NCBI GenBank assembly: GCA_026182355.1
Contig: JAPFBL010000546.1
Coordinates: 10,001 to 74,000, forward strand
Reading direction: 5' to 3'
Source of the DNA: Hermatobates lingyangjiaoensis
Lineage: Eukaryota; Arthropoda; Insecta; Hemiptera; Hermatobatidae
DNA: 64,000 nt
Below are positions 1,698 to 62,200 of this stretch, piece by piece. How positions within the stretch are numbered: position 1 is the first letter of the stretch; the number at the start of each line of letters is the position of its first letter. The notes under the pieces were generated by a model. The model was not told the DNA's origin, ran no database searches, and saw only the letters and a list, made by a program, of their open reading frames with translations. The translations under genes and the position numbers were made by a program.

Positions 1698-1792
1698 GGC
1701 CTATGAAAACAGTTTTAAATAAAAACCGAAATGTTGGCATTGTGAGTTTAATTTGAACCTGAAGAACTGACCGAATCCTGATAAACATAAAC
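1698..1792 (+). mobile_element. PLE terminal fragment, 'CCGAAACGTCGG' family
   Basis: Carries CCTATGAAAACAGTTTT and then CCGAAATGTTGG (1700-1737), followed by a segment that reads AACTGACCGA. The same order of blocks occurs at 24346-24440, 41228-41310 and 49410-49470. It is diverged and has no flanking (TA)n at its left end. Confidence 0.6.
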
Positions 1793-1884
1793 ATAGTTTT
1801 GTATATATTTTTATTTAATAAAGTTTGTTAATATATATATTGAAGAAAGAGGTAAATCTTTTGTTTGAAATATTTAAGTTGTGG

Positions 1885-1990
1885 CAGCCCTGTTTAAGTG
1901 ATGCTTAAACACAGGATATAAGGATACTGTTTTCTTTATTGGATAGAAGGATTAATTTAAATCGAGTTTCTTAAACAAATTTAAATAGAA
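1885..1990. repeat. Dispersed repeat, second copy near 21665-21755
   Basis: Shares the blocks TGCTTAAACACAG, GGATATAAGGATACT and GATTAATTTA, in order, with 21670-21745. Identity of the family is unknown. Confidence 0.5.
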
Positions 1991-2690
1991 TAGTGATTAA
2001 AATGTTTCAATTTGAAGACAGAAATCAATTAATTTTGGTGAAATTAAATTTTGGGGAAAGTCGGTCCCTTTTTTGTTTATTTAAAGCAGATGATTAGAGG
2101 AGGATTTACTAGAAGAATGGTTTTCGGTGTCTTGATGGCGTTAAAGGGGTTGGTTTTTAGGGGTTGTGATGGAGGGTAGGGGGTGGTGGGGGGGGGGGGT
2201 GAGAGAGGGAGGAAAGCATCGATTGAAATGGAAGACATGCGATCTCACAGTTAAGCAATAAACTATTCATAACTGTAACTCCCTATAAGTGTGTCTTCCT
2301 TTTTACTTTTAGCTTATAGCTTTTGAAGATGAAAACAATTTTTGCTTTTAGCTTATAGCTTATAGAAGATGGAAAATAATCATCCTTTTGGTTATTAAAC
2401 TTGAAGAAACAAACAATAAGTCGAACCAAGTGTTATTATAGATATCAATTGGTAATCAAAACAGAAAAAAAAAAACAAAGTTAACTCAAACAACAGACAA
2501 CAACATATCATTCATGAAGAAAAAAAATTGCGTCATTTTCATTTAACTGAGGTAGTAATCGTGGAGTAGTATTCCATTAAGGAGTCGAACTATTTAAATA
2601 TGATTTTGTACTTTCATTTTTTGTTTGTCTTATTTCCTGTCTGATATTGTACCTGTTTTTTTATTACTTGTCTTGTATTACTTATATATA
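1991..2690. other. Spacer with a G-run and a short direct repeat
   Basis: Holds a purine-rich stretch with a G-run at about 2189-2201, and two close copies of TTAGCTTATAGCTT near 2309 and 2347. No gene seen. Confidence 0.4.
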
Positions 2691-2699
2691 TATATATGA

Positions 2700-2866
2700 C
2701 TCAGAGTCACCGCCCTGTCTTACTGCGGGACACTTCGCTCTTCACACCTCCTGATGACGACGATGGTCGAAATATCGATGTGAGTTATGTCTGTGTCTTT
2801 CTCTGTGTTTCCTTCGTTTTGAATTTATTTTATTAAAAAAGTCCGCTGGACCGTTTCTTTTAATTG

Positions 2867-2870
<4 letters not shown>
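2700..2870 (+). mobile_element. PLE terminal fragment with hammerhead-like hairpin
   Basis: Bounded by (TA)n at both ends. At 2751-2773 it reads CTGATGA, C, a GAC...GTC stem, then GAAA. This is followed by TATCG and a GTGAGT that resembles a 5' splice site. Confidence 0.65.
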
Positions 2871-2903
<33 letters not shown>

Positions 2904-2906
<3 letters not shown>

Positions 2907-3040
2907 AGTGGAGTCGCATTCCACGCACAATCTTGAACGCACGTCGCTCTTCTTCTTCCCTTCTACTCTCTTCCTGATGACAAACGTCGGTTCGAAATAT
3001 TGATCCAGTAAGTGTTCTCGTTCTTTATGTGTCGTTTTTT
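2904..3040 (+). mobile_element. PLE terminal fragment with hammerhead-like hairpin
   Basis: Lies between two (TA)n tracts. CTGATGA (2974-2980) is followed by a short AAC/GTT stem and GAAA (2994-2997), then CCAGTAAGT, with a splice-donor-like GTAAGT at about 3008-3013. Confidence 0.6.
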
Positions 3041-3043
3041 TCA

Positions 3044-3405: not shown

Positions 3406-3427
3406 GAATATATATATATATATATAA

Positions 3428-3954: not shown

Positions 3955-4045
3955 GTTGTAGCCCTGAAGAAGACTAAAATATATGTCGAAACGTCACCGA
4001 GAGAAATATTTTCAATCATAAGACCTAAACCTCAAAAATCTTGAA
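3955..4045 (+). mobile_element. PLE terminal fragment, 'CGAAACGTC' family
   Basis: CCCTGAAGAAGAC, a loop, then GTCGAAACGTC (3964-3995). Hairpin stem GAC/GTC. Upstream sequence back to about 3640 is partly coding-like but not assignable. Confidence 0.5.
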
Positions 4046-4090
4046 ACATATGAGTATTGGGTCAAAAAAACAAATCATGATGTATATATA

Positions 4091-4317: not shown

Positions 4318-4475
4318 ACTTTAAATTACACAAAGCACGACACAGAAAAGAGAATACAAAGAAAACTTACAGAATTCAATATTTCGAACTGTTGTTCGTC
4401 ATCAGGAGAGTAGACTAGAAGAGAGGACGAAGTGAGAGAGATCTCCCCACGTCGAAGAACGGAGCGCGAAACAAT
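4318..4475 (-). mobile_element. PLE terminal fragment with hammerhead-like hairpin
   Basis: On the minus strand, 4405-4382 reads CTGATGA, C, a GAAC/GTTC stem, then GAAA. CTGTAAGT follows. Closely related copies are at 42480-42640 and 52480-52635. Flanked by (TA)n. Confidence 0.65.
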
Positions 4476-4539: not shown

Positions 4540-4910
4540 TGTAAATTTTGGTAGCAGTCATTTGACACACACATTATAGAAAATGACACCACATTTAGCT
4601 GATACCTGTTTCTTAACAAGTTTCTCAATTTTTCTAAATAACACTCTCGTTATTTCGCCTACACAATAAAGTACATCTCCTATGGTCGACATGTTTCGAA
4701 TGACCGAATAAACCAGATAATTTAACTTAGATCTTATTCACGTCCTGATGATGAATGTTGATCATTCGAAACATCTCGACCATTTATTGTGCGGAGATGT
4801 ACTTTATTGTGTAGACGAAATAACGAAAGTGTTATTTAGAAAAAATTGAGAAACTTGTTAAGAAACAGGTATCAGCTAAATTTGGTGTCATTTTCAATAT
4901 TATATATATT
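4540..4910. repeat. PLE palindrome: hairpin motif plus N-terminal helix, inverted
   Basis: Arms of about 130 bp, about 4578-4704 and 4767-4902. The plus-strand arm begins with CTGATGA, T, a GAATG/CATTC stem, then GAAA (4745-4771), and continues into a frame encoding a KIEKLVKKQVSAKFGVIF-like helix. The minus-strand arm has lost its CTGATGA half. The same family is intact and single at 27750-27960 and 43580-43765. Confidence 0.7.
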
Positions 4911-5819: not shown

Positions 5820-5940
5820 TACAATAGCAGTTTGCTTGTCAACGCGAGTTGTCATCTTCCTGATGACGATGGATGTCGAAATATCGAAGTGAGTTTATTG
5901 TGACTTTTTGGGTTCCTTCCTATTTGTTAAAGTATATATA
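5820..5940 (+). mobile_element. PLE terminal fragment, 'ATATCGAAGTGAGT' family
   Basis: CTGATGA (5860) with a short hairpin, GAAA (5878-5881) and then GTGAGT (5889-5894). Same family as 34858-35095. Flanked by (TA)n. Confidence 0.6.
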
Positions 5941-6703: not shown

Positions 6704-6890
6704 ACAAACACTTTTTTTGTTCTTGGAATTTGGTCAGGGTTAATATACGGAATCACCTTTTTGCCAACGTTTCGTCTTTATTTTAAAACATCCTCAGGGC
6801 TATAAACTAACAAAAAAACAATAAGCAATTGACATTTGTCATTTCTACTTTAAAAACATCATAACATATTCAATAAGCTTACTCAAGGCT
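6700..6890 (-). mobile_element. PLE terminal fragment, 'GAAACGTTGGC' family
   Basis: Minus strand 6797-6770: CTGAGGATG, an A/T hairpin, then ACGAAACG. Matches one arm of the palindrome at 40387-40680. Confidence 0.6.
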
Positions 6891-8339: not shown

Positions 8340-9148
8340 ATATATATTAGTGTATATTGGCAGCAGATTCTCTTGTAAACATATTTTATTAAAGTAGACG
8401 GCAGCTTCTGCATTACGACCTTTTTGCTGGTGTTTTCTAGTTTTCTTTGGTATGGAGTGATTTCATGAAGGAGTTGTCCCAGAGATATCAAAGAAATAAT
8501 TTCATAGCTTACTCAATATTATATTTTTACTTAAAAGTTTCGGTTTCACTGAAATCATCATCAGGTATATCGTATAAACTGATTAAGCGTAAACTAACAC
8601 AATAACAATTTTGAAAAAGTTAAACAAACATTAAAATAATTAAAATTAAGAGGATAAATAGAAATAGACAATCATTGTGAAAATACAAGTCCACTGTGAC
8701 AAGTGGAAGGTTACAACTTGTTATACACATTGCTTGTTATAAGCCTACACTAATAGGCCTACACTGACAGGACCCCCCAAGCAATGTGTATAACAAGTTG
8801 TAACCTTCCACTTGTCACAGTGGACTTGTATTTTCACAATGATTGTCTATTTCTATTTATCCTCTTAATTCTAATAATTTTAATGTTTGTTTAACCTTTT
8901 CAAAATTGTTATTGTGTTAGTTTACGATTAATCAGTTTATACGATATACTTGACGATGATTTCAGTGAAATCGAAAGCTTTTAAGTAAAAATATATTATT
9001 GAGTAACCTACGAAATTATTTCTTTGATATCTCTGGGACAACTCCTTCATGAAATCACTCCCTACCAAAGAAAACTAGTTAGAAAACTAGAAAACACCAT
9101 CAAAAAGGTTGTGAATGCGGAAGCTGCCGTCTACTTTAATAAAATATA
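8340..9148. repeat. Largest PLE palindrome, arms about 360-370 bp, loop 41 bp
   Basis: The left arm (about 8380-8736) and right arm (about 8778-9146) are inverted copies with scattered differences. The loop is about 8737-8777. The plus-strand arm carries the hairpin motif TTGACGATGATTTCA...TCGAAAG (about 8950-8975), then a frame encoding ISLGQLLHEITPYQRKLVRK and KKVVNAEAAVYFNKI, the PLE N-terminal region, ending in (TA)n. The minus arm has CTGATGATGATTTCA...CCGAAA at 8564-8538. The inner 200 bp of each arm is non-coding. Confidence 0.8.
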
Positions 9149-9152: not shown

Positions 9153-9412
9153 TACACTTCAATGTACATAAAGAAACATAATAAAAACACAAACTTACAG
9201 TCCCTAATTTTTGGTTGAACCATCTTCTGGAGAAATAAGAGAGGGAAACCAAGCGCACTGGTACCGAGACGGTGGTCTCCAACCATCTCTGTACCAGTGC
9301 GCTTGGTTTCCCTCTCTTATCTTTCCTGAAGATGGTTCAACCGAAAATTAGGGACTGTAAGTTTGTGTTTTTAATTTCTCTATGTTTCTTTATGTACATT
9401 GAAGTGTATTTG
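9153..9412. repeat. PLE terminal palindrome, arms about 112-118 bp
   Basis: Arms about 9153-9264 and 9294-9409, with a spacer that also partly pairs. The plus arm has CTGAAGAT, GGTT/ACC stem, GAAA (9326-9346), then GGACTGTAAGTTTG. Related single copies: 28430-28565, 34745-34855 and 42180-42475. Confidence 0.75.
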
Positions 9413-10159: not shown

Positions 10160-10378
10160 TTATAGTGTGGTATTTACTCATATTGGGAAAAGTATTATGA
10201 CTCGACAAAAAAAAAAGTTTATTATAAAAAAACTAACCAAGCAGAGTCCTTGCTTGGTGTCACTCACTGAATAACCACCTCAGGAGAGCAGGTGTAACCT
10301 GAAGAAGAACATCAAGTGTTTGAAACGCGTAAACCTTTTTTGTGTAGAGACATAATATTTTCCCCCAATACGGAGACA
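10160..10378. mobile_element. PLE terminal pair, 'GAAACGCG' family
   Basis: At left, TGGTATTTACTCAT is the antisense end of this family. At right, on plus, CTGAAGA (10299), an AACAT/GTGTT stem and GAAACGCG (10322-10329). Other members: 31978-32335, 37010-37100, 58250-58335, 60090-60235 and 61060-61140. Confidence 0.6.
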
Positions 10379-10619: not shown

Positions 10620-10632
10620 AGTTTGTCTGTCC

Positions 10633-10670
<38 letters not shown>

Positions 10671-10690
10671 CTGTCTGTCTGTCTGTCTGT

Positions 10691-10724
<34 letters not shown>

Positions 10725-10758
10725 CTGTCTGTCTGTCTGTCCGTCTGTCTGTCTGTCC

Positions 10759-10800
<42 letters not shown>

Positions 10801-10812
10801 CTGTCTGTCCGC
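10620..10812. repeat. (TCTG)n microsatellite
   Basis: About 190 bp of CTGT units with scattered CCGT variants, flanked by TATAGAAATAAAACTG on the right. It is open in several frames on both strands, but the translated products are pure repeat and I do not call them genes. Confidence 0.95.
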
Positions 10813-11639
10813 TATAGAAATAAAACTGGTGGCATTTAGATACAAAGAAACATATTGCTTTCTTTGCATTACTACTTACTTACTTACTACTTACTATTAC
10901 TTACTGCATTACTGCTTACTTTGCATATAAAAATATGTACTGCTTTATATTTTAAATAATTTCAATATATGAACATAACATATGGTGCCGAAGCCGTGGT
11001 TAACCTCAAATCATGACTCGTAAAATGAATCTTACATAACCTTTTTTGGGGGGAATTAAATAAAGTATTTTTTTTTAAATAACAAAATTTTACTATTTAG
11101 TACATAATATTCTCAGATGACGTATTCACATTGCCGATGCAGGATATTTTATACTCTATTTATAGGAAAAATAAAAATTATAAAAAAAATAAAGGTACTC
11201 TTTTTAAATACGTTTAGATGCCAAGAAATAGATGGATCTTTAAAAAAATTTTTGGGGGAACTAACTACGGTATTTTGATTTTGATCGGGGTCCTTTTTTG
11301 GGATAACTATCCCTTTCCGATAACCACTTATAACCAAAACGCTGGGGCATAATCTACCGACCAGGCAACGCCGGGTAGATCAGTTGGTTTTATTTTTTTT
11401 TATAGTTTCTTCTTCAAATACAATCATACATCGGTTCTACGGATTTCGGACAAAATCTAGAGCTTCATACATGACTGGATCAGCCAGACGTGGTCCGATA
11501 TTTCCTCCAGTTGACTACATGTCCAACCACATATATTCAACTGGAAATACATACATACATATGTATGTATGGCCACATGTTCCTGGCAGTTGATCACTAA
11601 ATGACATGTGATCGCTTTGTCATCACGTGGTGGACTACC

Positions 11640-12565
11640 TCATAAAGTAATCTTAGTAGGTTTACATCGTTTCAAACTTGAAAGGTTTACCTTAGAAGAC
11701 TACCCCAAGAAGTTATCTTCGTAAGATTTATTCATTTGAGGCTTAATAAGATTACCTTATAAGACTACCTCAAGAAATTATCTTCGAAGATTACTTCATT
11801 TCAGATATAGTAAGATTACCTTATAAGACTACCTCAAGAAGTATCTTCGTATGATTACTTCATTTCAGGCTTAGGCGGAGTAAGATTACCTTATAAGACT
11901 ACCTCAAGAAGTTATCTTCGTAAGATCACTTAATTTCAGGCTTAGTAATATTACCTTATAAGACTACCTCAAGAAGTCATTTTCGTAAAATTTATTCATC
12001 TCAGGCTTAGTAATATTACCTTATAAGACTACCTCAAGAATTTATCTTCGTAAGATTACTTCATTTCAAGCCTAGGCGTAGTAAGATTACCTTATAAGAC
12101 TACCTCAAGAAGTTATCTTCGTAAGATTGATTCATTTCAGTCTTAGTAAGATTACCTTATAAGATTACCTCAAAAATTAATCTTCGTAAGATTTATTCAT
12201 TTCAGGCCTAGGCGTAGTAAGATTACCTTATAAGACTACCTAAAGAAGTTGTCTTCGTAAGATTGATTCATTTCAGGCTTAGTAAGATTACCTTATAAGA
12301 TTACCTCAAAAATTAATCTTCGTAAGATTTATTCATTTCAGGCCTAGGCGTAGTAAGATTACCTTATAAGACTACCTAAAGAAGTTGTCTTCGTAAGATT
12401 TATTCATTTCAGGCTTAGTAAGATTACCTTATAAGATTACCTCAAAAATTAATCTTCGTAAGATTACTTCATTTCAGACCTAGGCGTAGTAAGATTACCT
12501 TATAAGACTACCTCAAGAAGATATCTTCATAAGGTTACTTAATTTCAAACTTAATACTTGAAGGT
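11640..12565. repeat. Minisatellite of 65/71-bp units with 136-bp higher-order period
   Basis: About 13 units share AAGATTACCTTATAAGACTA, CCTCAAGAAGTTATCTTCGT and TTCATTTCAGG. A longer variant adds CCTAGGCGTAG. That insert starts at 12071, 12207, 12343 and 12479, exactly 136 bp apart, so the right half is three copies of a long+short dimer. Confidence 0.9.
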
Positions 12566-24074: not shown

Positions 24075-24439
24075 CGTTGGATAGAATAGGAGTATAATGT
24101 AATCGGGATTCGGTCAATTTTCCAGGATCAAAATCAAACTCTCAATGCGACGTTTCGGTTTTATTTAAAACCTTTTTCATAGGCAGAAGTCAGAATTTTT
24201 GAATTAGAAAAATGATGAAATTTACATTATATAAAATGAAGTAACAATAGATAGTTAGTGAACTAACATCTTAACTATCTATTGTTACTTCATTTTATAT
24301 AATGTAAATTTCATCATTTTTCTAATTCAAAAATTCTGACTTCTGCCTATGAAAAAGGTTTTAAATAAAACCGAAACGTCGGCATTGAGAGTTTTATTTT
24401 GATCCTGGAAAATTGACCGAATCTCGATTACATTATACT

Positions 24440-26727: not shown

Positions 26728-26884
26728 AAGATTTCACATAAACACGTGAAACAACAATCAATGATCAAACCACAATAAGAAATGGGAAAACAAGACTAAG
26801 ATCTTTCAACCGTAACAAGCGGTCTTCGTTAGAGTCAAAAACACAACTCAGTTAGGTATAACCACATTTCTTATTGTGGTTTGA

Positions 26885-27412: not shown

Positions 27413-27414
27413 GC

Positions 27415-27734: not shown

Positions 27735-27965
27735 AATTCACCTTAGAACTTATTGACATCCTGATGATGAATGTTGATCATTCGAAACATGTCGACCATA
27801 GGAGATGTACTTTATTGTGTAGACGAAATAACGAGAGTGTTATTTAGAAAAATTGAGAAACTTGTTAAGAAACAGGTATCAGCTAAATTTGGGGTCATTT
27901 TCAATAATGTGTGTGTCAAGGAAGGACAGCTACCAAAATTTACGAATATTTATATATATACACTT
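27735..27965 (+). mobile_element. PLE 5' unit: hairpin motif followed by N-terminal coding helix
   Basis: CTGATGAT, a GAATG/CATTC stem, GAAA (27761-27787), ACATGTCGACC, then a frame that reads VDEITRVLFRKIEKLVKKQV and continues to VCVKEGQLPKFTNIYI before (TA)n. This is the cleanest example of the order hairpin, helix, (TA)n. Flanking AATAAACCAGATAATTCACC is shared with 4700 and 43572. Confidence 0.75.
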
Positions 27966-28034: not shown

Positions 28035-28205
28035 TAAAACAGAAAGAAACATGAATGAAAAGTAGACCCTAAGACTCACTTTTGATTTTCGACCTTTTTG
28101 ATGACTATCTTCAGGTGAATAATAATAATAATTTATTATTTTCTTCTGCCTGAAGATGACCTATGAGGTCGAAAGCTTGTGTTTTCCCTTATAATCTCAA
28201 GTAAG
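28035..28205. repeat. PLE terminal inverted pair, 'GGTCGAAAGC' family
   Basis: Plus: CTGAAGAT, GACC/GGTC stem, GAAA (28150-28174). Minus: CTGAAGATAGTCATC...GGTCGAAAA (28114-28087). Short arms. Confidence 0.6.
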
Positions 28206-28429: not shown

Positions 28430-28570
28430 TATAGTTCAATATAGACAAAGAAACATAGAGAAATCAAAAGAACACACTTACAGTCTCTAATTTTCGGTTT
28501 GAACCGTCTTCAGGAGAGAAGAGAGGGAAACCAAGCGCACTGGTTCAGAAACGGTTGGGGACCAACAGTC
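28430..28570 (-). mobile_element. PLE terminal fragment, 'GAGACTGTAAGTGTG' family
   Basis: Minus strand: CTGAAGACGGTTCAAACCGAAAATTAGAGACTGTAAG (broken here as CTGAAGACGG, TTCAAACCGAAAATTAG, AGACTGTAAGTGTG). Stem CGGTTC/AAACCG. Also at 34745-34855 and 42180-42475. Confidence 0.65.
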
Positions 28571-28589: not shown

Positions 28590-28918
28590 ATATATACTCC
28601 AATAATTGTTCTTGACCTCTTCTATTCTATTCTATGTTTTGTTATTGAGGGCTAGGTTAAATAAAAGAAAATAAACTCCTTCCTAGGCCGACGTTTCGAT
28701 GTATTTGTACATCATCTTCAGGGCTAAAATTAGAGTAAGAACTATAATACATTTACCAAAACAATTTACAACTCACATTGTTTTGGTAAATGTATTATAG
28801 TTCTTACTCTAATTTTAGCCCTGAAGATGATGTACAAATACATCGAAACGTCGGCCTAGGAAGGAGTTTATTTTCTTTTATTTGACCTAGCCCTCAATAA
28901 CAAAGCATAGAATATATA
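28590..28918. repeat. PLE terminal palindrome, 137-bp arms, 11-bp loop
   Basis: Arms 28629-28765 and 28777-28913. Plus motif CTGAAGAT, GATGTA/TACATC stem, GAAACGTCGG (28821-28852), the longest perfect stem among the short-loop motifs. Minus mirror at 28721-28694. Confidence 0.85.
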
Positions 28919-29130
28919 AAAAGATTTCACATAAACACGTGAAACAACAATCAATGATCAAACCACAATAAGAAATGGGAAAACAAGACTAAGATCTTTC
29001 AACCGTAACAAGCGGTCTTCGTCAGAGTCAAAAACCCAACTGGGTTTTTGACTCTGACGAAGACCGCTTGTTACGGTTGAAAGATCTTAGTCTTGTTTTC
29101 CCATTTCTTATTGTGGTTTGAACATTGATA
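28918..29130. repeat. Palindrome family X, almost perfect, 2-bp centre
   Basis: Arms about 28956-29038 and 29041-29123, centred on ACCCAACTGGGT. Each arm carries, reading outward, CTGACGAA, a GACCG/CGGTT stem with 7-nt loop, then GAAA. Upstream TTTCACATAAACACGTGAAA is itself a CACGTG palindrome. Nine related copies are listed in the findings. Confidence 0.85.
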
Positions 29131-30999: not shown

Positions 31000-31245
31000 T
31001 GATAAACATAATATATCTCTCTTAGCTCTCGACTCCTTAGTTCCTTTTTTATTTTTTTCTCCTTTGCGGCAGCACTGCTTTAGTCCTCACCCAGTGAGTT
31101 CTTTAGTTGACTGTCGTCCCTCCGTCAATTCGCTTCTTCTCCTGAGGACGACCGCCATTACGGTCGAAATATTGAAAAGTGAGTCTTTTGTTATGTTTCA
31201 TTCTATGTGTCACTGTTTATTTTAAGTGTTTTATATATATATATA
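31000..31245 (+). mobile_element. PLE terminal fragment, 'GAAAAGTGAGTC' family
   Basis: CTGAGGAC, GACCG/CGGTC stem with a 6-nt loop, GAAA (31142-31169), then ATTGAAAAGTGAGTC, with donor-like GTGAGT at 31179. Same 3' sequence as each arm at 6499-6626, showing what that palindrome lacks. Confidence 0.7.
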
Positions 31246-31977: not shown

Positions 31978-32338
31978 GTAAAAAGCTAATGAAATGGTCT
32001 CCACATATAAAAATTTAATCGTATAAACAACGCGTTTCGAACATGTAGTGTTCTTCATCAAGCATTAACTAAAAAAAAAACAATGTCATCAGAGAGTTAT
32101 ATATAGTACAAAGTAAATATAGTACAAAATAAAAATAAAATAAAATAATGAAGGGAATACGAATCTACGGGTGTGTGTCTGTGGTACAACTGACTGGGAA
32201 TAGGATGGAAGTGGGTCCAACCACATTGTAGTCTTCAGTTAATGCCTGAGGAAGAACACTAAGTGTTCGAAACGCGTTGTTTATACCATTAAATTTTTAT
32301 ATATGGATACCTTTTCCTTAGCTTTTTACCCTATAATG
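31978..32338. repeat. PLE terminal inverted repeat, 'GAAACGCGTTG' family
   Basis: Arms about 31978-32075 and 32236-32333. Plus motif CTGAGGAA, GAACAC/GTGTTC stem, GAAACGCG (32245-32275). Minus CTTGATGAAGAACAC...GTTCGAAACGCG (32062-32030). Outer ends TAGGGTAAAAAGC and GCTTTTTACCCTA. Not flanked by (TA)n, unlike other families. Confidence 0.75.
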
Positions 32339-33237: not shown

Positions 33238-33440
33238 ATCAATGATCAAACCACAATAAAAATGGGAAAACAAGACTAAGATCTTTCAACCGTAACAAGC
33301 GGTCTTCGTCAGAGTCAAAAACCCAACTCTGACGAAGACCGCTTGTTACGGTTGAAAGATCTTAGTATTGTTTTCCCATTTCTTATTGTGGTTTGATCAT
33401 TGATTGTTGTTTCACGTGTTTATGAGAAATCTTTATATAT
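33238..33440. repeat. Palindrome family X
   Basis: Two full arms with AACCGTAACAAGCGGTCTTC and its reverse complement, centre TCAAAAACCCAA unpaired. CACGTG at the right end. Confidence 0.8.
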
Positions 33441-34257: not shown

Positions 34258-34490
34258 ATATAAAACGCTTTCACATAAACACGTGAAATAACAATCAATG
34301 ATCAAACCACAATAAGAAATGGGGAAACAAGACTAAGATCTTTCAACCGTAACAAGCGGTCTTCGTCAGAGTCAAAAACCCAACTCAGTTGGGTTTTTGA
34401 CTGTGACGAAGACCGCTTGTTACGGTTGAAAGATCTTAGTCTTGTTTTCCCATTTCTTATTGTGGTTTGATCATTGATATATATATATAT
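34258..34490. repeat. Palindrome family X
   Basis: Complete arms with centre ACCCAACTCAGTTGGGT, the same centre as 46205-46425. CACGTG outside the left arm. (TA)n on both sides. Confidence 0.85.
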
Positions 34491-34857: not shown

Positions 34858-35098
34858 ATACACTTTAACACAGAGAAAAGAACACAGAAAGACACTACAG
34901 AACTTCACTTCGATATTTCGACATCTGTCGTCATCGGGAAGAAGTGCGAAGTACTCTCGTTGAGAAGCAAACTTTGAGTAGCAGTTTGTTTCTCAACGCA
35001 AGTACTTCGCACTTCTTCCCGATGACGACGGATGTCGAAATATCGAAGTGATTTCTGTAGTGTCTTTCTGTGTTCTTTTCTCTTTGTTAAAGTGTTTA
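34858..35098. repeat. PLE terminal palindrome, arms about 106-112 bp
   Basis: Arms about 34861-34972 and 34987-35092, centre TTGAGTAGC. The plus arm has CCGATGACGACGGATGTCGAAA, with CTGATGA changed to CCGATGA. Outer ends CACTTTAACA and TGTTAAAGTG. Single arms at 3044-3180 and 54005-54130. Confidence 0.8.
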
Positions 35099-38984: not shown

Positions 38985-39075
38985 TTTGCCTGTCAAGTAG
39001 TTTTTCTCCTGATGATGATGATGAGGTCGAAATATTGAAGAGAGTTGTATGATATGTTGTTTTAACGGACTGTTT
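38985..39075 (+). mobile_element. PLE terminal fragment
   Basis: CTGATGATGATGATGAGGTC, then GAAATATTGAAGAGAG (39009-39040). Confidence 0.5.
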
Positions 39076-40386: not shown

Positions 40387-40678
40387 AACAAACACTTTTT
40401 CTTCTTCTCGGAGTTTGGTCAGGGTAAATATATGGAATCACCTTTTTGCCAACGTTTCGTCTTTATTTTAAGGCATCCTCAGGGCTATAAATCCAGGCTG
40501 GGTTCTGTTACATTACAACAACCATTAACCGTCAACACTTAACGGTTGTTGTAATGTAACAGAACCCAGCCTTGATTTATAGCCCTGAGGATGCCTTAAA
40601 ATAAAGACGAAACGTTGGCAAAAAGGTGATTCCATATATTTACCCTGACCAAACTCCGAGAAGAAGAAAAAGTGTTTG

Positions 40679-41159: not shown

Positions 41160-41330
41160 CGGTTAACATTGTTGTTCCTTTAAATAATGTCAATTTCATT
41201 TTCTTAGTTAAAAAATTCTTACTTCTCCCTATGAAAAAGGTTTTAAATAAAACCGAAACGTTGGCAACAAGAGTATAATTTTTTATCCTGGAAAATTTAC
41301 CGAACCCCGATTAGAGAACACACCTATATA
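41160..41330 (+). mobile_element. PLE terminal fragment, 'CCGAAACGTTGG' family
   Basis: CCTATGAAAAAGGTTTT, AAAT, AAAACCGAAACGTTGG (41228-41264), as in 24346-24382. Ends at (TA)n. Confidence 0.65.
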
Positions 41331-41354: not shown

Positions 41355-41552
41355 GATCAAACCACAATAAGAAAATGGGAAAGCAAGACTAAGATCTTTC
41401 AACCGTAACAAGCGGTCTTCGTCAGAGTCAAAAACCCAACTGAACACTAGATGCAGAAAACATCTGGTGAGGAGTTGAGAAAAGTGGGAGGGAAGAGATT
41501 TTCCCATTTTCTTATTGTGGTTATTTCACGTGTTTATGTGAAATCTTTATAT
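41355..41552. repeat. Palindrome family X with unrelated centre
   Basis: The left arm is complete to GTCAAAAACCCAACT. Then about 60 bp of unrelated sequence, then only TTCCCATTTTCTTATTGTGG and CACGTGTTTATGTG. Confidence 0.65.
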
Positions 41553-42119: not shown

Positions 42120-42175
42120 TATAAAACTTACAGCTATATTTCGACTGGCGTCGTCATCAGGTTCGAGCAGCCGAA
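42120..42175 (-). mobile_element. PLE hairpin motif
   Basis: Minus 42160-42139: CTGATGAC, GAC/GTC stem, GAAA, then TATAGCTGTAAGTTTT with donor-like GTAAGT. Confidence 0.6.
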
Positions 42176-42179: not shown

Positions 42180-42478
42180 TATATATGTACACACTTTTTC
42201 GTTGGAAATACGATCCAAAACGGACAAATATAGTTCAATATAGACAAAGAAACATAGAAAAATCAAAAGAACAGACTTACAGTCTCCAATTTTTGGTTTG
42301 AACCGTCTTCAGGAGAGATAAGATAGGGAAACCAAACGCACTGGTTCAGAGACGGTTGGAGACGGTCTCCAACCTCTCTTCCCTCTTTTATCTCTCCTGA
42401 AGACGGTTCAAACCGAAAATTAGTGACTGTAAGTGTGTTCTTTTGATTTCTCTATGTTTCTTTGTCTATATTGACTAT
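42180..42478. repeat. PLE terminal palindrome, 'GACTGTAAGTGTG' family
   Basis: Inverted arms of about 125 bp around TTGGAGACGGTCTCCAAC (about 42356-42373, itself a short palindrome). The plus arm has CTGAAGACGGTTCAAACCG, then AAAATTAGTGACTGTAAG. Confidence 0.75.
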
Positions 42479-43011: not shown

Positions 43012-43425
43012 TTACAAGTGAACTCCTGTTCCCTTTCTATTTTTGATTTTTGTGGTGGTTGGGTGTTGTTGTTGTTTACTATTTTCTGTTACAGATATTG
43101 CTAGATTTTTAATTGATACTTTTGGTTGTTTACTGCGAAAAGCAGCCTTCATCTTCATGCCAACAGAGGTAGAGGTTGCACAGTCCCTCTTGATTATTAA
43201 AAGATGTTGACACTGGATTCCAACTTTTTCTCGTAGAAACATCTTCAAGTTGTAGGTTTTGCTTATTGTTCTCTTCGGTTTCTTATGTTCATGTTTTTTC
43301 TTCAGTTGAATGTTATTGCTGCTATTGATGTATGGCTGGAAGGTGATGAAAAGTTCTGCACTGTTGACCTGGTGGTGGTATTTGCGACATGTTTCAACCA
43401 TTCTCTGGTTATCTTCAGGCAAGGA
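43012..43425 (-). mobile_element. PLE-related segment with hairpin motif and an open frame
   Basis: Minus 43418-43391 has CTGAAGAT, AACCA/TGGTT stem, GAAACATGTCG. A 136-residue lysine-rich frame runs through it (beginning PEDNQRMVETCRKYHHQ). It has no domain I recognise, and its start codons coincide with the hairpin, so coding status is doubtful. Confidence 0.45.
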
Positions 43426-43564
43426 AATGGCCCAGACGTGGTCCTTATATACAGTTTTCCTATATATATATATATATAGGAGTGGCTTCAGTTTATGGAT
43501 TAATATAGCTTCTCAAATTCTCAGTTTATGGTGGTTTCTTTTTTTTTTCATTATTTTAGAATTT

Positions 43565-43755
43565 ATAAATATAATAAACCAGATATTTCACCTTAGATCT
43601 TATTCACGTCCTGATGATGAATGTTGATCATTCGAAACATGTCGACAATAGGAGATGTACTTTATTGTGTAGACGAAATAACGAGAGTGTTATTTAGAAA
43701 AATTGAGAAACTTGTTAAGAAACAGGTATCAGCTAAATTTGGTGTCACTTTCAAA

Positions 43756-45613: not shown

Positions 45614-45831
45614 GTTAACACATGAAAGAGAAAAAACAAATAAAGATACACACAAAAGACTCACAACGATGATATTTCGACAGTCGTCGTCATCGGGTAG
45701 AAGTAGTCCCTTTGAGTAGCTGAAGCTACTCAAAGGGACTACTTCTACCCGATGACGACGACTGTCGAAATATCATCGTTGTGAGTCTTTTGTGTGTATC
45801 TTTATTTGTTTTTTCTCTTTCATGTGTTAAC
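45614..45831. repeat. Near-perfect 218-bp palindrome of a PLE terminus
   Basis: Left arm 45614-45721, 2-bp centre GA at 45722-45723, right arm 45724-45831, with no mismatch that I can see. The plus arm carries CCGATGACGACGACTGTCGAAATATC (split: CCGATGACGAC, GACTGTCGAAATATC) and GTGAGTC. Right flank CTAGTAGTCCTGTTGGACC also follows the relative at 22685. Confidence 0.9.
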
Positions 45832-46202: not shown

Positions 46203-46416
46203 TAAAAAGATTTCACATAAACACGTGAAACAACAATCAATGATCAAACCACAATAAGAAATGGGAAAACAAGACTAAGATCTTTCAACCGTAACAAGCG
46301 GTCTTCGTCAGAGTCAAAAACCCAACTCAGTTGGTTTTTTGACTCTGACGAAGACCGCTTGTTACGGTTGAAAGATCTTAGTCTTGTTTTCCCATTTCTT
46401 ATTGTGGTTTGATCAT

Positions 46417-50739: not shown

Positions 50740-52158
50740 AAGACTTTCTTTCACTTTCTCTCTCTGTTCCCCGATTCATACTTCTTCAACTTTCTCTCAC
50801 TCACATATAATCACCTATCTTTCTCTTTACATTTCCAACCCTTTATCTCTCACTCACTCTCTATTCTCTTACATAATCTTTCCTTCAGTTATACTTTCTC
50901 ACTATGTTCTTTCTTAGACGTTACACGTTTATTTCTCCCACTCTCCTCACTTTCTCTTTTCCATTTCTTTATCTTCTTCACCTTTCACTCACTTCACTCT
51001 TTCTCTCTGGCAAACTTTCTCATCCCATACTAATTCTCAATCCCTTATTTCCCTCTTTTAATTTGCCTCCCTAGTGGAATCTCTCACTCTCTCTCTCTCT
51101 GTTCCCCGACTCACACTTCCTCAACTTTCACTCACTCACACATAATCACCTTTCACCTTTCCTTCTCTCTATTCTCTCACACTATATTTCCTTCACTTAT
51201 ACTTTCTCACTTAGATATAAACACCTATTTCTCCTGCCCCCTTCACTTTCTCTTTTCCATTTCTTTATTTTCTTCACGTTTCACTCACTTCACTCTTTCT
51301 CTCTCTCTCACAAACTTTCTCATCCCATACTAATTCCCAATCTCTTATTTCCCTCTTTTAATTTGCCTCCCTAGTGGAATCTCTCTCTCTCTCTCTCTCT
51401 CTCTCTGTTCCCCGACTCACACTTTCTCAACTTTCACTCACTCACACATAATCACCTTTCACCTTTCCTTCTCTCTATTTTCTCACACTATATTTCCTTC
51501 ACTTATACTTTCTCACTTAGATATAAACACCTATTTCTCCTGCCCCCCTCACTTTCTCTTTTCCATTTCTTTATTTTCTTCACCTTTCACTCACTTCACT
51601 CTTTCTCTCTCTCTCTGAAAAGCTTTCCCATCCCGCACTAATTCCCAATCCCTTATTTCCCTGTTTCAATTTGCCTTCCTCGCGGAATCTCTCACTCTCT
51701 CTCTCTGTTCCCCGACTCACACTTCCTCAACTTTCACTCACTCACACATAATCACCTTTCACCTTTCCTTCTTTCTATTCTCTCACACTATATTTCCTTC
51801 ACTCATACTTCCTCACTGAGACTTCAAAACCTATTTCTCCTGCCCCCTCACTTTCTCTTTTCCATTTCTATATTTTCTTCACCTTTCACTCACTTCACTC
51901 TTTCTCTCTCTCTCTGAAAAGCTTTCCCATCCCGCACTAATTCCCAATCCCTTATTTCCCTGTTTTAATTTGCTTTCCTCGCGGAATCTCTCACTCTCTC
52001 TCTCTGTTCCTCGACTCACACTTCTTCAACTCTCACTCACTCACACATAATCACCTTTCACCTTTCCTTCTTTCTATTCTCCCGCATTATATTTCCTTCA
52101 CTCATACTTTCTCACTTAGACATCAAAACCTATTTCTCCAGCCCCCTCACTTTCTCTT
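50740..52158. repeat. Polypyrimidine minisatellite, period about 300 bp
   Basis: GTTCCCCGACTCACAC-like blocks start at 50766, 51101, 51407, 51707 and 52006, giving periods of 335, 306, 300 and 299 bp. Every unit has CACATAATCACCTTTCACCT and CTTTCTCTTTTCCATTTC. The last unit breaks off inside TTTCTCTTTTC, where a PLE fragment starts. Confidence 0.9.
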
Positions 52159-52340
52159 TTCGAGAAAGGGAGACGAAGCATGTTGTAGACGCAACGGCAA
52201 CTAACCCGTTACTAGCCTTCTGAAGACCGATTGCCCAAAAGTTTGAGTTTGTAAGTGTGTTTATTTACTTTTTGTGCTACCTATCCTCAATTTTGAACTG
52301 TTATTATGGCCAGTTTGGATCGTTTTTCCGTTTATTAAGA
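52155..52340 (+). mobile_element. PLE terminal fragment joined to the minisatellite
   Basis: CGAGAAAGGGAGACGAAGCA, then TCTGAAGACCGATTGCCCAAA and TTTGAGTTTGTAAGTGTG. The GAAA is CAAA. No (TA)n on the left; the right side ends at (TA)n. Confidence 0.6.
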
Positions 52341-52483: not shown

Positions 52484-52636
52484 CTTTAAATTACACAAAG
52501 CACGACACAGAAAAAATAATAAAAAGAACACTTACAGAATTCAATATTTCGAACTGTTGTTCGTCATCAGGAGTAGACTAGAAGAGAGGACCAAGTGAGA
52601 GAGATCTCCCTACATAGAAGAACGGAGCGCGAATAT
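52484..52636 (-). mobile_element. PLE terminal fragment, copy of 4318-4475
   Basis: ATTTCGAACTGTTGTTCGTC and ATCAGGAGTAGACTAGAAG antisense, with (TA)n both sides. Confidence 0.65.
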
Positions 52637-52959: not shown

Positions 52960-53350
52960 TGACAATCTTTAAATATTATACCACGAAAAAGAACATAACT
53001 GACTGCAAATTTTAGAAGCCCTGTGTATAAGACAGCACAAACCTAACCTGAACAATCAGGCCACGAGTTTCGTGAAAATTTTAAAACTACATGCAGAAAC
53101 CGTGATTAAGTAAAAGACTCTATATCTTTAGTGTCATTAATTAGCTATAGGAATCCTAAAGCAAAAACTGAAATACTAGAACCTTACAAGGCTGTGTAAC
53201 CTCCCAGGTATACACCATGTAATAATTCTCTATTGTTTCAATGTAGTTAGTAATTTGAATTGTTACAGTATTTATTGTTATTTTTTATTATTTAGTTATT
53301 AATCTGTAATGTCCTTGAAGATGGTCAAAGTTGACTGAAACGTTAGAAAT
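52960..53350 (+). pseudogene. PLE C-terminal fragment followed by hairpin motif
   Basis: 52985-53110 reads HEKEHN, stop, LQILEALCIRQHKPNLNNQA, then ILKLHAET, the same pattern as 27415-27680 and 38055-38290 with one in-frame stop. About 200 bp downstream, CTTGAAGAT, GGTCAA/TTGACT stem, GAAACGTTAG (53314-53347). The order C-terminus then terminus is that expected at a PLE 3' end. Confidence 0.55.
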
Positions 53351-53579
53351 GCAATTTAGAGTGTATATGCTCGTAATAGAGTTTGTAACATTAGATTAAA
53401 ATAATGTAACTAACTGGTATGCAGTTTGGTGCATTGTTGCATAGTACCTGATAGATTAAAAAATATCTTTAGAAGAATGAAAAAATTAATTAGAAGAATA
53501 ACTACAATGTAAATAGCCATATCATTCAATGAAACATGTTTGAATAAAGGTTTTTCCATCGAAATATAGCAATATATTT

Positions 53580-54182: not shown

Positions 54183-54574
54183 GTTACAGCTAGAGAACAC
54201 AAGAAAAAGGACGAACACTCACGAATCTCGATTATTTCGGCGTCTTGCCGTCTTCAGGAGAGTAGAAAGAAAGAAAATAAAATAAAAGGAGAAAGAATGA
54301 AGGAACGGAGACGTAAATGCGTCCACTGGCCGATGTAAACTGGCGCGATACAATGACACGCAGTGCAGCCATCTTACCAACGTGAACCAGTGTAGGCTGT
54401 GAGTTAAAAAAATTATAAAAGTGATATTTAAGTAAAAGGGAGGAGAAAAGTAAAAAAGAGAAAGGAAAGGAAAAAAACATAAAACTAACTAAAATTAAAC
54501 GAGGAAAAAAAAAATATATATATAAATAAATAAATAAATGAATAAATAAATAAAGATAAAAATAAAATAAAAAA
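54160..54574 (-). mobile_element. PLE 3' region and pLTR-like terminus
   Basis: Directly downstream of the PLE ORF on its strand. About 190 bp of A/T-rich 3' sequence, then the terminus 54375-54165, with CTGAAGAC, GGC/GCC stem, GAAA (54257-54235) and GTGAGT (54222-54217), ending at (TA)n near 54175. Matches the solo copy 3428-3626, where the stem is GG/CC. Confidence 0.75.
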
Positions 54575-55780
54575 TCATCTGATTAAATTTAGACCAGGGG
54601 AATTTCTTGCACCCAATAACCAAATGAAGGCTTCCTCAGAAGCCCTTAGAGTGGTCTGGGTGTCATCATTTGAGAGTTTTCTTAATATTTTAACCCTGAA
54701 GCAATCGTTGAAGGGAAGGTTATGGAGATTGGCGTGGGTGGCAACAGGCAGCTGCTTGCGTTGACCAACGGATGACCTGTGACCATTCATACGGAGGCTA
54801 AGTGACGTGGAAGTCAGGCCCACGTAGAATGAGTCACATTGTGTGCAGTCCAGACGATAAACACAATTGCTGGAAGTGCAAGAACTAGCAAAGGAGAGAG
54901 GGTATGAATGGTTGTTCACTGTCGAAATGAAATGGCTGTCAGGATTGATGATGGGACAGGTGAGGCATTTCCTTCTGCCACATTGCTTTGTGCCAAAAGT
55001 GTCAGGTGCAGGCCTGGAGCGTTTAAAACTTCTATGGGAGAAGATATTGCCCAGAGTGGGGGGTCGTCTAAAGGAAATCCGGGGTGATTTGGTGAAAATA
55101 TTGGAAGTGGTCGGAGAGGATGACAGGAGAGGGAAGAGTTCCTTGATGACTAAGCGTAACTTATTAATTGTGGGAAAGTATGTGGTGGTGAGGAAGGGGC
55201 TATTATTATCGGAAATGCAATTATTTCGAGGTGTATGAATGATTCCAGCCGGGATGATACGCTTGTCAAGAAGATGTTGGGGGTAGCCACGTTCAAGAAA
55301 TTTATTTTTCAGTTGACTAATCTGGTGTCGTTTGTCCTGAATATTGCTACAAATTCTATGGATACGATGTGAAAGGGAACGTGGAATAGACTTCATAATG
55401 TGTGGCGGGTGACAACTGCTGAAATGGAGATATTGTTGGGGATTGGTTGGCTTTGTGTATATGGAGGTGACCAAACTACCTTTGTCTATGGTGATATTAA
55501 CATCTAAAAAGGTTATAGCTTTATCAGAAACGGAGTGAGTGAATGAGATGGAGGGGGAAAAATGTTCAAATGAGTTGATAAAAAAGGTCAAATTGGCTTC
55601 CCCGTGGGGCCATATAAAAAAGATGTCATCTATGTAACGGGTATAGAGAAGGGGCAAGAGAGAGCAGGTATTGAGAAAGGCCTGTTCCAGCTTTGCCATG
55701 AACAGACATGCGAAAGATGGGGCCATACTAGTTCCCATTGCTGTACCTCTGACTTGGAGATAGTATGTATCATCAAACAC
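54575..55780 (-). CDS. Penelope-like element protein, 5'-truncated: RT (second half) plus GIY-YIG endonuclease
   Basis: An open frame of 401 codons. The first codon (GTG) is not a real start: the frame continues upstream into (TA)n, so the element is truncated there. Order of domains: RT motif B-like QVRGTAMGTSMAPSFA (residues about 9-24), catalytic YIDD (49-52), ITFLDVNI and YTKPTNPQQYLHFSSCHPPH typical of the PLE/TERT-related RT, a thumb region, a Cys-rich linker CGRRKCLTC (about 250), then a GIY-YIG-type domain with CVYRLDCTQC and FYVGLTS and an R...H pair (LRMNGHRS), ending LGARNSPGLNLIR. Lacks the N-terminal region and RT motifs 1-3. Intact downstream to its terminus. In the family the RT copies RNA and the nuclease nicks the target, often at AT-rich DNA. 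No stop or frameshift in 1.2 kb suggests a fairly recent insertion. Confidence 0.9.
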   Translation of the reverse strand: MFDDTYYLQVRGTAMGTSMAPSFACLFMAKLEQAFLNTCSLLPLLYTRYIDDIFFIWPHGEANLTFFINSFEHFSPSISFTHSVSDKAITFLDVNITIDKGSLVTSIYTKPTNPQQYLHFSSCHPPHIMKSIPRSLSHRIHRICSNIQDKRHQISQLKNKFLERGYPQHLLDKRIIPAGIIHTPRNNCISDNNSPFLTTTYFPTINKLRLVIKELFPLLSSSPTTSNIFTKSPRISFRRPPTLGNIFSHRSFKRSRPAPDTFGTKQCGRRKCLTCPIINPDSHFISTVNNHSYPLSFASSCTSSNCVYRLDCTQCDSFYVGLTSTSLSLRMNGHRSSVGQRKQLPVATHANLHNLPFNDCFRVKILRKLSNDDTQTTLRASEEAFIWLLGARNSPGLNLIR

Positions 55781-60055: not shown

Positions 60056-60089
60056 AACTAGCAATTATATTCAATTATTTAAATTATTA

Positions 60090-60240
60090 GTTGTGCAATC
60101 CATAATTGTGTGGTATTTACTCATTCTGAGGTAAAATGGATAAACAAACAAAAGTCTCCACACAAATTAAGTTTTATTCAACAAACAACAACTCGTTTCG
60201 AACACTTTGTGTTCACCATCAGGAAGACACCAAGGATTTG
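60090..60240 (-). mobile_element. PLE terminal fragment, 'GAAACGAG' family
   Basis: Minus 60222-60192: CTGATGGT, GAACAC/GTGTTC stem, GAAACGAG, running to TGAGTAAATACCACAC. The stem matches 32245-32275 exactly while flanks differ. Confidence 0.65.
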
Positions 60241-61055
60241 GTGCTGAAGGGTTGATTAATTTCCTGATGGGTTTTGTATTAAATTCCTACCAGTCAAAAC
60301 AACTAGTAGGAAATGAATTTATCACTGTTTATTTATTCTTTATTTATCATTCATTGATAAATCTTCATTGAATTTTATCATTCAATTATTTGTTTTTAAT
60401 GCAGTTATCTCTATTTTGTTAATTTCAATGAATATGTAATAATTCTCACAACCTTGTAAAAAAATCAAATCAACTACAATGACTAATAATCAAGACTAGA
60501 GTCATTTCTTAGGTAGTATTTTTAATTAATTTTCAACATATTGCAAATTTATATTGTTGAGTTTATATAGTTTATTATTATCATTTCAAAGAGTTTAGTT
60601 TAGCTAAAACAAATAAAGAAGGAACCATTTTTTTTAAAAAAATTACTGAGAACACTACATTTTTAAGTTTTATTTGAATAATTAATTATTTTATCAATTA
60701 CATTTTATTCTAAGTCATGTAATTAGTTGTGTAATTTCTTTTACATAATTATCTTAAAATTTAAATTAACTTAATTCATTTATATTATTAATTAAAGCGG
60801 TATTTTTGTAAAAAATGAATTCTATCAAATCATGAGCAACGCAAGCAGTTATTGTGTGTTTTCTTTTAATTGTAATTAATGTTACTCATTGCATTACTTC
60901 CATTTTTTTTACACTTTTTGTACAGTAAATCTTATTTTTATTTTGATAATAGTAGAATTAAGTTATTGTGTTGTATTTATCTTTGAATAGAAATCTTAGT
61001 CTTTTCACATAAAGGAATTAGTGTCCTTTGACTCCTGAAACAGTCAATATCACCT
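60241..61055. other. AT-rich spacer, nothing recognised
   Basis: Homopolymer-rich, no supported gene. Confidence 0.4.
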
Positions 61056-61059
61056 TACT

Positions 61060-61150
61060 GAGGCAAATGTAACCTGAAGATGAACACTAAAGTTCGAAAC
61101 GAGTCATCAAAACTTTTTTTGTGTGTGAAACTTATTATTTCTTCCTCTTT
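61060..61150 (+). mobile_element. PLE terminal fragment, 'GAAACGAG' family
   Basis: CTGAAGAT, GAACACTAAAGTTC hairpin, GAAACGAG (61074-61101), then TTTTTTTGTGTGTGAAAC. Faces the copy at 60090-60240, making an inverted pair about 830 bp apart. Confidence 0.65.
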
Positions 61151-61495
61151 CTAATATAAATCTATTAAATAACCTATTTTGAAAACTAGATAGGTTTTTA
61201 ATATAATTATAGAAATCCTGCAAGGAACTACACATAAGAATGCCTTAACAGATTTTTAGGGTTAAGTTTATTTCTATAACAATAACTCGAATTAGTACTA
61301 ATAATTTTTTATTTTGTTATATACTAATACTAATATTAGTAAGAGTAACATAAAAATATTAATTAGTAATGTTAATTAACACATTTGGTATAAACATTTT
61401 AAAAATCAAATAAAATGATTTTGGGTAAAAAAATTTATAAAAAAATACAAAACTGCGTATCATATAGTTTCTAATGGCTAAATAGTGGTTATGGT
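61151..61495. other. AT-rich spacer
   Basis: Nothing supported. Confidence 0.35.
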
Positions 61496-61498
61496 AAT

Positions 61499-61680
61499 GG
61501 GTGTCAGAGTAGTCCAGTGGCTTGTGTGCTCACCTTTGGATTGGTAGTTCCGGGGTTCAATACCCAATCTGGTCTTCGATTTATTCACTCGGAAAGATGA
61601 AAAAAAAAACTGAGTTTGTTTTTCTTCAGAGAGGACGTTAAGGCTGTACTATTCAGGTACTCGTTAAAGATTTACTGGGG
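61499..61680 (+). mobile_element. SINE, diverged, 3' truncated
   Basis: GGGTGTCAGAGTAGTCCAGT head, box B GGGGTTCAATACC, TTCGATTTATTCACTCGG, AGAGGACGTTAAG and GGTACTCGTTAAAGAT. Confidence 0.75.
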
Positions 61681-61739
61681 TAGTAATGGCGTGATTAAGC
61701 ACCATTTGACTCCGACTTTCGGTCTTCACGAGGCTACTC

Positions 61740-62200
61740 TGTTAACCTGCTGTATGCAGGGACAAACGAAAGAGGAGAAGGGGATCAGGGGCTGGGCCTG
61801 GCCACCTTCGTTTCACATCCTTCCTAATCCCAAATCCCCTCCTTTTATCTCAGCCCCAATCTAAGGTGTAATGCGATCCGTGCCGAAATATGAATGATAC
61901 AGGGGTTACTGTATTATGAACGGAGCCTCAATAGTACCAGGCGACCCCCTTGAGTAAATTGCCTTACTCCGGTATGCGGTGTTCTTCCGGAGCGGACAAA
62001 ATACCACCGATAAAGCTTCAGGGATTTTCCCCTGTATGATACTAAGGAGAAGGAAGTCCGGAGACCATCTTCCGGAAGCGCATATTGTCCAAAAGCGCTA
62101 ACTAGTGGGAGCCAACCTCCCACAAGTGCACCTGAAGACCCGAAGAAGGAGAAAGGAAGTTACTTTCTCCCGAAACGTAAGGAGTCTGAATAGACATTAT
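61740..62200 (+). mobile_element. GC-richer element with a long-stem hairpin motif
   Basis: Base composition is unlike the surroundings. 62132-62176 reads CTGAAGACCCGAAGAA, then an 8-bp stem GGAGAAAG/CTTTCTCC with a 7-nt loop, then CGAAACG. Just before, GTGGGAGCCAACCTCCCAC is a second hairpin (62105-62123). Both are found inverted at 63306-63361. Probably another PLE family terminus. Confidence 0.6.

Follow-up and report, generated by a model that had tools for sequence, protein, structure and literature searches.

A 64,000-nt stretch of the genome of the hemipteran insect Hermatobates lingyangjiaoensis (contig JAPFBL010000546.1 of assembly GCA_026182355.1, positions 10,001 to 74,000 of the forward strand; hereafter the window) carries, on both strands, many copies of a short motif that reads CTGANGA, one base, a hairpin and GAAA. 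The question raised by this locus is what this motif is. The original prediction had placed about 40 copies in the ends of Penelope-like elements (PLEs) and had read them as hammerhead ribozymes, or as a sister motif with no obvious stem III. Our analysis indicates that the motif is very probably a small dimeric type I hammerhead ribozyme residing in the repeated ends of these retroelements.

A repeated motif with a hammerhead core and stems

Both strands of the window were scanned with a strict descriptor consisting of CTGANGA, a spacer of 0-3 nt, a stem of at least 3 bp with at most one G-U pair, and GAAA. Of the 32 sites detected, 30 had a 1-nt spacer; the corresponding means in 20 first-order Markov sequences were 1.1 and 0.2. 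When the stem was set to at least 5 bp there were 18 sites, every one with a 1-nt spacer, against 0.1 in the Markov sequences. A working set of 37 copies was assembled by allowing one core mismatch (36 by script, plus the copy at 10299 added manually); the core is exact in 31 and has one mismatch in six, GAAA being imposed by the descriptor. Reduction at ≤75% identity left 22 representatives, which were aligned without difficulty. A covariance model built on these non-redundant rows, with stem II as its sole structure, produced 67 matches at E ≤ 0.1 on both strands, about one per kb, and 30 of these were new relative to the working set. Nine further matches at E 0.1-1 were left out of this count, and the E-values are rough, the model being partly trained on its own matches. 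Over 82,713 bases of 13 other loci, all ten model matches at E ≤ 0.1 coincided with hammerhead sites, while the site on one contig (L031, see below) was missed.

These counts bear out the repetition that had been predicted. The stems originally listed at 2751, 4745, 27761, 28821, 31142, 32246 (given as 32245), 60222 and 43418 (both on the minus strand) and in the family termed X were all found again, and the CCGATGA and CTATGA variants are genuine families, with eight CCGATG[A/C] sequences among the covariance-model matches and three CTATGA copies. The candidate at 62132 fits poorly (spacer of 9 nt by eye, covariance-model E = 0.76) and is a doubtful member. The estimate of at least ten families was correct, although a shared GTRAGT suggests that eight of the 22 representatives could form a single superfamily.

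Over the whole structure, 86.3% of cells were paired and the covariation score was 0.675. In 500 shuffles the means were 62.2% and 0.219, with the observed values reached by none, and sliding the partner by 1-3 columns lowered the score to 0.03-0.13. Related sequences can beat such shuffles and the first three pairs of stem II are imposed by the descriptor, so that only pairs 4 and 5 and the palindrome described below are independent tests. Pair 4 was formed in 17 of the 22 representatives and pair 5 in 13, compared to shuffled means of 11.4 and 7.0. Stem I, between the bases 5' of CTGANGA and those after H17, had a mean of 2.0 contiguous pairs in the representatives; shuffled partners gave 1.23, with one of 5000 shuffles reaching the observed value, and wrong registers gave 0-0.36. 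None of the 22 has G at position 17, where T (10), C (8) and A (4) occur; the length of stem III was set manually in three of them for this count.

An even palindrome with A15.1 as its first base comes directly after GAA, with a base other than G behind it; it was exact in 18 of the 22 representatives, compared to 123 of the 1126 other GAAA sites of the window (10.9%). The palindrome was exact in 33 of the 37 working copies, and 25 of the 30 covariance-model copies outside the working set were also palindromic at that place. Its letters vary among the representatives (ATAT 6, ACGT 4, AGCT 2, AATT 2, ACGCGT 2, AGATCT 1, ACATGT 1). The representative at 4745 is a mutated copy (ACATCT) whose sisters both carry ACATGT, and two representatives carry ACGAGT, which could self-pair via two G-A mismatches. 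In the aligned representatives the inner stem III pair was CG in 8, UA in 7, AU in 2, GC in 2 and unpaired or other in 3, and the A15.1-U16.1 pair typical of hammerheads is present. A stem III therefore exists where the original prediction saw none, as a self-complementary stretch of 4-6 nt that is the mark of the dimeric type. Since a palindrome of 4 nt is unable to fold back, two copies would have to come together to build stem III, and a palindrome that keeps its place while its letters change looks like the trace of selection for pairing of two identical strands. Taken together, the core with GAAA, the A15.1-U16.1 pair, the absence of G at position 17 and the type I arrangement of the three stems argue that the motif is a hammerhead.

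The extra base between A9 and stem II

As the original prediction had noted, an extra base is present; in every one of the 37 working copies it separates A9 from G10.1, where stem II opens. In the representatives this base is most often T (11), followed by C (7) and A (4), and never G. Stem II opening right after A9, a usual but non-defining hammerhead trait, was found in none of the 37 copies.

An insertion at this place is on record in a viroid. A review reports that the plus-strand hammerhead of chrysanthemum chlorotic mottle viroid (CChMVd) carries an extra A (A10) between A9 and G10.1, that trans-cleavage is three- to fourfold faster with U at this position and that C or G is very harmful (PMC3705267). 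Since an accepted natural hammerhead has the identical insertion, the insertion marks a variant rather than a non-member. The window copies and the CChMVd hammerhead are alike in having an extra base at the same location; they are unlike in that the latter belongs to a viroid and there prefers U over A, with C and G much worse, whereas T, C and A occur here. The CChMVd hammerhead presumably also has a stem III of its own. Where Perreault et al. (2011) treat the pseudoknot and variation of the core, three viroid variants are mentioned without detail, and an insertion after A9 is not named (PMC3088659).

Phage sequences provide a second comparison. In IMG/VR, 74 stretches matched a pattern in which an additional T precedes a GGC/GCC stem II. 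A site was counted as complete if stem I had ≥4 bp and a separate stem III was present; this applied to 65 of 79 distinct sites, and to none once the downstream part was shuffled. The same pattern with an extra A or C gave four sites, one complete, and without the extra base 47 sites, 34 complete (shuffled control, 2). Phage type I hammerheads with the extra U lie on L012, L016, L023, L024, L033, L044 and other IMG/VR loci, and by eye the GG of their stem II loop could pair with a CC after stem I as a pseudoknot. They resemble the window copies in having the same core and one extra base before a stem II G-C pair. In contrast to the window copies, they have their own stem III hairpin and are monomeric, reside in prokaryotic viruses, and use U almost exclusively (65 complete sites with T against one with A or C, for one stem II pattern).

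Among the features described here, only the fixed extra base may be new as a class. We tentatively propose, at somewhat less than even confidence, that hammerheads with an obligatory A9-N-G10.1 insertion are a subclass spread across a large PLE radiation and, as U, among phages, and that the insertion is a common selected form rather than a viroid oddity.

Setting in Penelope-like elements

The minus-strand frame at 54578-55780 (401 aa) has 68 homologues, and among those listed 39 carry PF00078 (reverse transcriptase) and 15 carry PF01541 (GIY-YIG). Pfam RVT_1 matches this frame weakly, with 19.2 bits where 29.6 would be needed to reach the cut-off. Relatives with a species name, from leafhopper, sharks, sea urchin, coral, sea cucumber and frog, are 31-40% identical, and one sea-cucumber protein reaches 47% over a third of the reverse transcriptase query. 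The motif at 54257 lies on the same strand, ~320 nt downstream of this frame. A PLE setting is seen for this one copy, and most copies are not tied individually to a PLE frame. A second frame, 27396-27677, bears what we take by eye to be a likeness to the GIY-YIG C-terminus, but Pfam found no GIY-YIG in it and tblastn of the 68 homologues matched only 54587-55777. The neighbouring reverse transcriptase, together with the core, A15.1-U16.1, the non-G position 17, the in-register stem I and the covariation, upholds the prediction of hammerheads in PLEs.

The PLE protein alignment also matched five contigs (L028-L032) in assemblies filed as bacterial, archaeal and cyanobacterial, which are probably eukaryote contamination. 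A hammerhead motif was present on four of the five (four of nine scan rows, picked by eye for stems I and III), and the scan gave none on L029. The covariance model recovered three of these four motifs. L028 (extra a, ATAT, 6-bp stem I) and L032 (extra a, AGCT) have the extra base; L031 (ACTAGT) and L030 (a long near-palindrome) lack it, so that PLE hammerheads occur in both forms. Among viral contigs, 61 stretches matched the pattern of the reverse transcriptase alignment and none was confirmed as a PLE relative.

The flanks of the motif were also examined. (TA)4 or longer lies within 260 nt downstream of 54 of the 67 covariance-model copies, compared to 38.7% of random positions, and upstream of 51. 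A repeated coding tail, P-x-[YFS]-T-N-I-Y ending at (TA)n, occurred ten times by one pattern, and the motif copies at 27761 and 28150 continue into such a tail. The tails of different families (27771-27953 and nine others) stop at the same TNIY codons where (TA)n begins. It is as if reverse transcription started at one conserved place via pairing with (TA)n. This pattern would fit 5'-truncated PLE insertions into (TA)n combined with an internal start of reverse transcription, by analogy with the account given in passages on the Anolis PLE (PMC11167929). The window copies resemble that element, PAc, in the overlap with the start of a frame and in genomic copies that end where reverse transcription starts inside the RNA; they differ in host, and PAc has been assayed and needs protein for cleavage, whereas the window copies are known from sequence alone.

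The ribozymes belong to a kind already described for PLEs. Minimal type I hammerheads of these elements were reportedly described by Cervera and de la Pena in 2014 and by Lunse, Weinberg and Breaker in 2017. Review passages state that they are minimal, have no stem III and possibly cleave themselves as dimers (PMC7761336, PMC6155905, PMC6466107), that hammerhead dimerisation requires a palindromic stem III (PMC6466107), that the tertiary contact between loop I and loop II is said to be missing from PLE hammerheads (PMC6155905), and that their activity and role are a mystery (PMC7761336). The window copies share with these published hammerheads, as known from such passages, the class of element, the place near its ends, the type I layout, the minimal stem III and the expected dimer action, and they add the base between A9 and G10.1 in every working copy.

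Proposed dimeric action weighed against other explanations

In the proposed mechanism, each copy would consist of a short stem I, CUGANGA, one extra base, stem II, GAA, a palindrome of 4-6 nt running from A15.1 to U16.1, and then a cleavable H17. Two copies, in a tandem transcript or on two RNAs, would pair through their palindromes, each donating half of its partner's stem III and stem I, and a cut after H17 would trim multimeric element RNA to units. Dimerisation, cleavage and use in processing are what the hammerhead family would lead one to expect.

Several results weigh against this reading. An Rfam search, which the original prediction had called for, gave no hammerhead match in the window, at gathering score or even at E ≤ 10; among the 104 listed matches, microRNA-type models on inverted repeats rank best. 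Two of five covariation measures, namely changes on both sides (40 of 500 shuffles) and further pair types (105 of 500), behaved like shuffles. Five of the 22 representatives have no contiguous stem I pair, and the longest unbroken stem I has four pairs. The extra base is C in seven representatives, while C at that position is reported as very harmful in the viroid hammerhead (PMC3705267). Nearest-neighbour energies favoured two monomer folds over the double hammerhead in 17 of the 18 representatives evaluated, in a model that joins two copies in one chain with no linker and with energies that ignore the catalytic core. Same-strand pairs of the same family within 6 kb occur only in family X (8 pairs, 1.1-5.3 kb apart), most of whose copies stand in short inverted units, and no clear tandem or full element with two copies was found in the window. 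Families with a broken core, both CTATGA (G5 missing) and CCGATG[A/C], have also multiplied, perhaps helped by intact elements.

The Rfam result is weak evidence, since Rfam also misses the phage sites. At 14 loci with extra-T phage sites it gave no match at gathering score, at E ≤ 0.1 or at E ≤ 1, and it gave none for the phage sites without the extra base on L038, L074 and L083; one further such site, on L106, had a weak match below gathering score. As the Rfam models see neither the window set nor the extra-T phage sites looked at, ribozymes like these are probably under-annotated.

Two features of the copies and their surroundings were also observed. Wherever two motifs are neighbours within 120 nt (11 pairs), the first is on the minus and the second on the plus strand, a divergent arrangement reached in 0 of 10000 strand shuffles. 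Extending the limit to 200 nt gives 14 divergent pairs, ten of which have arms with 81-100% identity over 70 nt (pairs at 22746-22867, 28682-28860, 28985-29094, 40443-40624, 45663-45782, 46271-46385 and others). Such pairs could arise by double insertions primed from both strands at (TA)n; the Anolis PLE protein is described, in the passages cited above, as extending both strands (PMC11167929). GTRAGT, the 5' splice site consensus, lies 11-16 nt after the start of GAAA in eight representatives (2751, 5860, 9326, 31142, 42160, 42397, 52570 and 54257) and within 45 nt in nine of the 22, where 0.03 is expected per site. An intron may begin just after the ribozyme.

Of the other explanations, the one that fares best sees the hairpin mainly as a protein-binding handle for the element ribonucleoprotein, with catalysis a relic or of minor importance. 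Passages on the Anolis PLE report that its hammerhead cleaved only once protein was added and that catalytic mutants still inserted in vitro (PMC11167929). In the window, the three CTATGA copies without G5 retain stem II and stem III, and some copies lie just upstream of the ends of coding tails. A binding handle has, however, no need for a non-G base at position 17, and it is the catalytic core (CUGANGA, GAAA, A15.1-U16.1, non-G 17) that is conserved here while stem sequences and loops are free. In view of the multiplied families with damaged cores and of the Anolis mutant and protein results, we give this explanation a fifth of the weight and consider it unlikely.

A DNA-level palindrome or hairpin, such as an endonuclease or strand-transfer site, would account for the divergent orientation of all close pairs and for the frequent (TA)n downstream, but (TA)n is about equally common upstream. 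Symmetry of the DNA leaves the one-sidedness of the core, the lack of G at position 17 and the stem I register unexplained, and the palindrome varies by family while its place is constant. We regard such a site as highly improbable. Conservation through the coding of a peptide PED...ET of an element protein, to which the copy at 43418 within the open frame 43015-43512 and the tail frame that begins inside stem II might point, was rejected as having next to no likelihood, since the distance from core to GAAA (17-25 nt) falls in all three mod 3 classes and the printed frames of many copies contain stops, and since changes are paired across the stem.

The window also contains other elements. A hAT transposase C-terminal dimerisation region lies at 23161-23478 on the plus strand (PF05699, E 2.3e-11). 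A repeat unit, partly in tandem with a 271-nt period, occurs at 13240-13522, 16948-17524, 36617-36899 and 63365-63619; its start looks tRNA-like by eye and it is perhaps a short interspersed nuclear element. Tandem arrays are found at 11633-12547 (65/136-nt unit), 50930-52161 (299-nt unit) and 10624-10809 ((TGTC)n).

Table 1. Positions of motif copies and associated frames in the window.
Feature	Position	Strand	Details
Hammerhead motif	2746..2784	+	extra c, stem III ATAT, then GTGAGT
Hammerhead motif	4370..4410	-	extra c, stem III ATAT
Hammerhead motif	5855..5893	+	extra c, stem III ATAT, then GTGAGT
Hammerhead motif	6758..6802	-	extra t, stem III ACGT
Hammerhead motif	9321..9358	+	extra t, stem III AATT, then GTAAGT
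Hammerhead motif, family X	26792..26837	-	CTAACGA core, stem III AGATCT
Hammerhead motif	28480..28518	-	extra c, stem III AATT
Hammerhead motif	28682..28726	-	extra t, stem III ACGT; inverted partner of 28816-28860
Hammerhead motif	28816..28860	+	extra t, stem III ACGT, stem I GCC/GGC
Hammerhead motif, family X	28985..29030	-	stem III AGATCT
Hammerhead motif, family X	29049..29094	+	extra a, stem III AGATCT, stem I GACT/AGTC
Hammerhead motif	31137..31181	+	extra c, stem III ATAT, then GTGAGT
Hammerhead motif, family X	33272..33317	-	
Hammerhead motif, family X	33324..33369	+	
Hammerhead motif, family X	34329..34374	-	
Hammerhead motif, family X	34398..34443	+	GTGACGA core
Hammerhead motif	39004..39044	+	extra t, stem III ATAT
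Hammerhead motif, family X	41385..41430	-	
Hammerhead motif	42127..42165	-	extra c, stem III ATAT, then GTAAGT
Hammerhead motif	42392..42430	+	extra c, stem III AATT, then GTAAGT
Hammerhead motif, family X	46271..46316	-	
Hammerhead motif, family X	46340..46385	+	
Hammerhead motif	52535..52575	-	extra c, stem III ATAT, then GTAAGT
Hammerhead motif	54223..54262	-	extra c, stem I TCTC/GAGA, no exact palindrome (ATAAT); ~320 nt downstream of PLE frame
Hammerhead motif	4740..4783	+	extra t, stem III ACATCT (broken palindrome)
Hammerhead motif	27756..27799	+	extra t, stem III ACATGT
Hammerhead motif	43606..43649	+	extra t, stem III ACATGT
Hammerhead motif	32023..32066	-	TTGATGA core, extra a, stem III ACGCGT
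Hammerhead motif	32241..32284	+	extra a, stem III ACGCGT
Hammerhead motif	3959..4003	+	extra a, stem III ACGT, stem I unpaired at first two positions
Hammerhead motif	8945..8988	+	TTGACGA core, extra t, stem III AGCT
Hammerhead motif	28145..28186	+	extra t, stem III AGCT
Hammerhead motif	53310..53352	+	TTGAAGA core, extra t, stem III ACGT
Hammerhead motif	61069..61111	+	extra t, stem III ACGAGT (self-pairing only with G-A mismatches)
Hammerhead motif	60184..60227	-	CTGATGG core, extra t, stem III ACGAGT
Hammerhead motif	43380..43423	-	extra t, stem II AACCA/TGGTT, stem III ACATGT, stem I TTGC/GCAA
Hammerhead motif	10294..10337	+	extra a, stem II with G-U pairs, stem III ACGCGT; added manually
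Inverted pair, CTATGA core (G5 missing)	24141..24388	both	stem III ACGT retained
Third CTATGA-core copy	41226..41270	+	
CCGATGA-core (U4 to C) copies	34904..35052	both	stem III ATAT
Inverted pair, CCGATGA core	45663..45782	both	arms 1.00 identical over 70 nt
Inverted pair, CTGAGGA core	40443..40624	both	stem III ACGT
PLE reverse transcriptase frame, 401 aa	54578..55780	-	68 homologues
Open frame, repeated coding tail	27771..27953	+	starts inside stem II of 27761 motif; ends ...KFTNIY at (TA)n
Doubtful member	62127..62166	+	9-nt spacer by eye, covariance-model E = 0.76

Read as a collection of small dimeric hammerheads, the window amounts to a natural mutagenesis experiment, in which the letters of stem III vary by family and palindromy is kept. 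The kept palindromy is evolutionary evidence that the ribozymes are maintained for pairing with another copy. If an A9-N-G10.1 subclass exists, the insertion would tune the rate of cleavage or couple cleavage to dimerisation or to a protein. The window also offers ready natural sequences in which the extra base is T, C or A, and with them it can be tested whether this base sets the rate, the dependence on a dimer or the dependence on protein.

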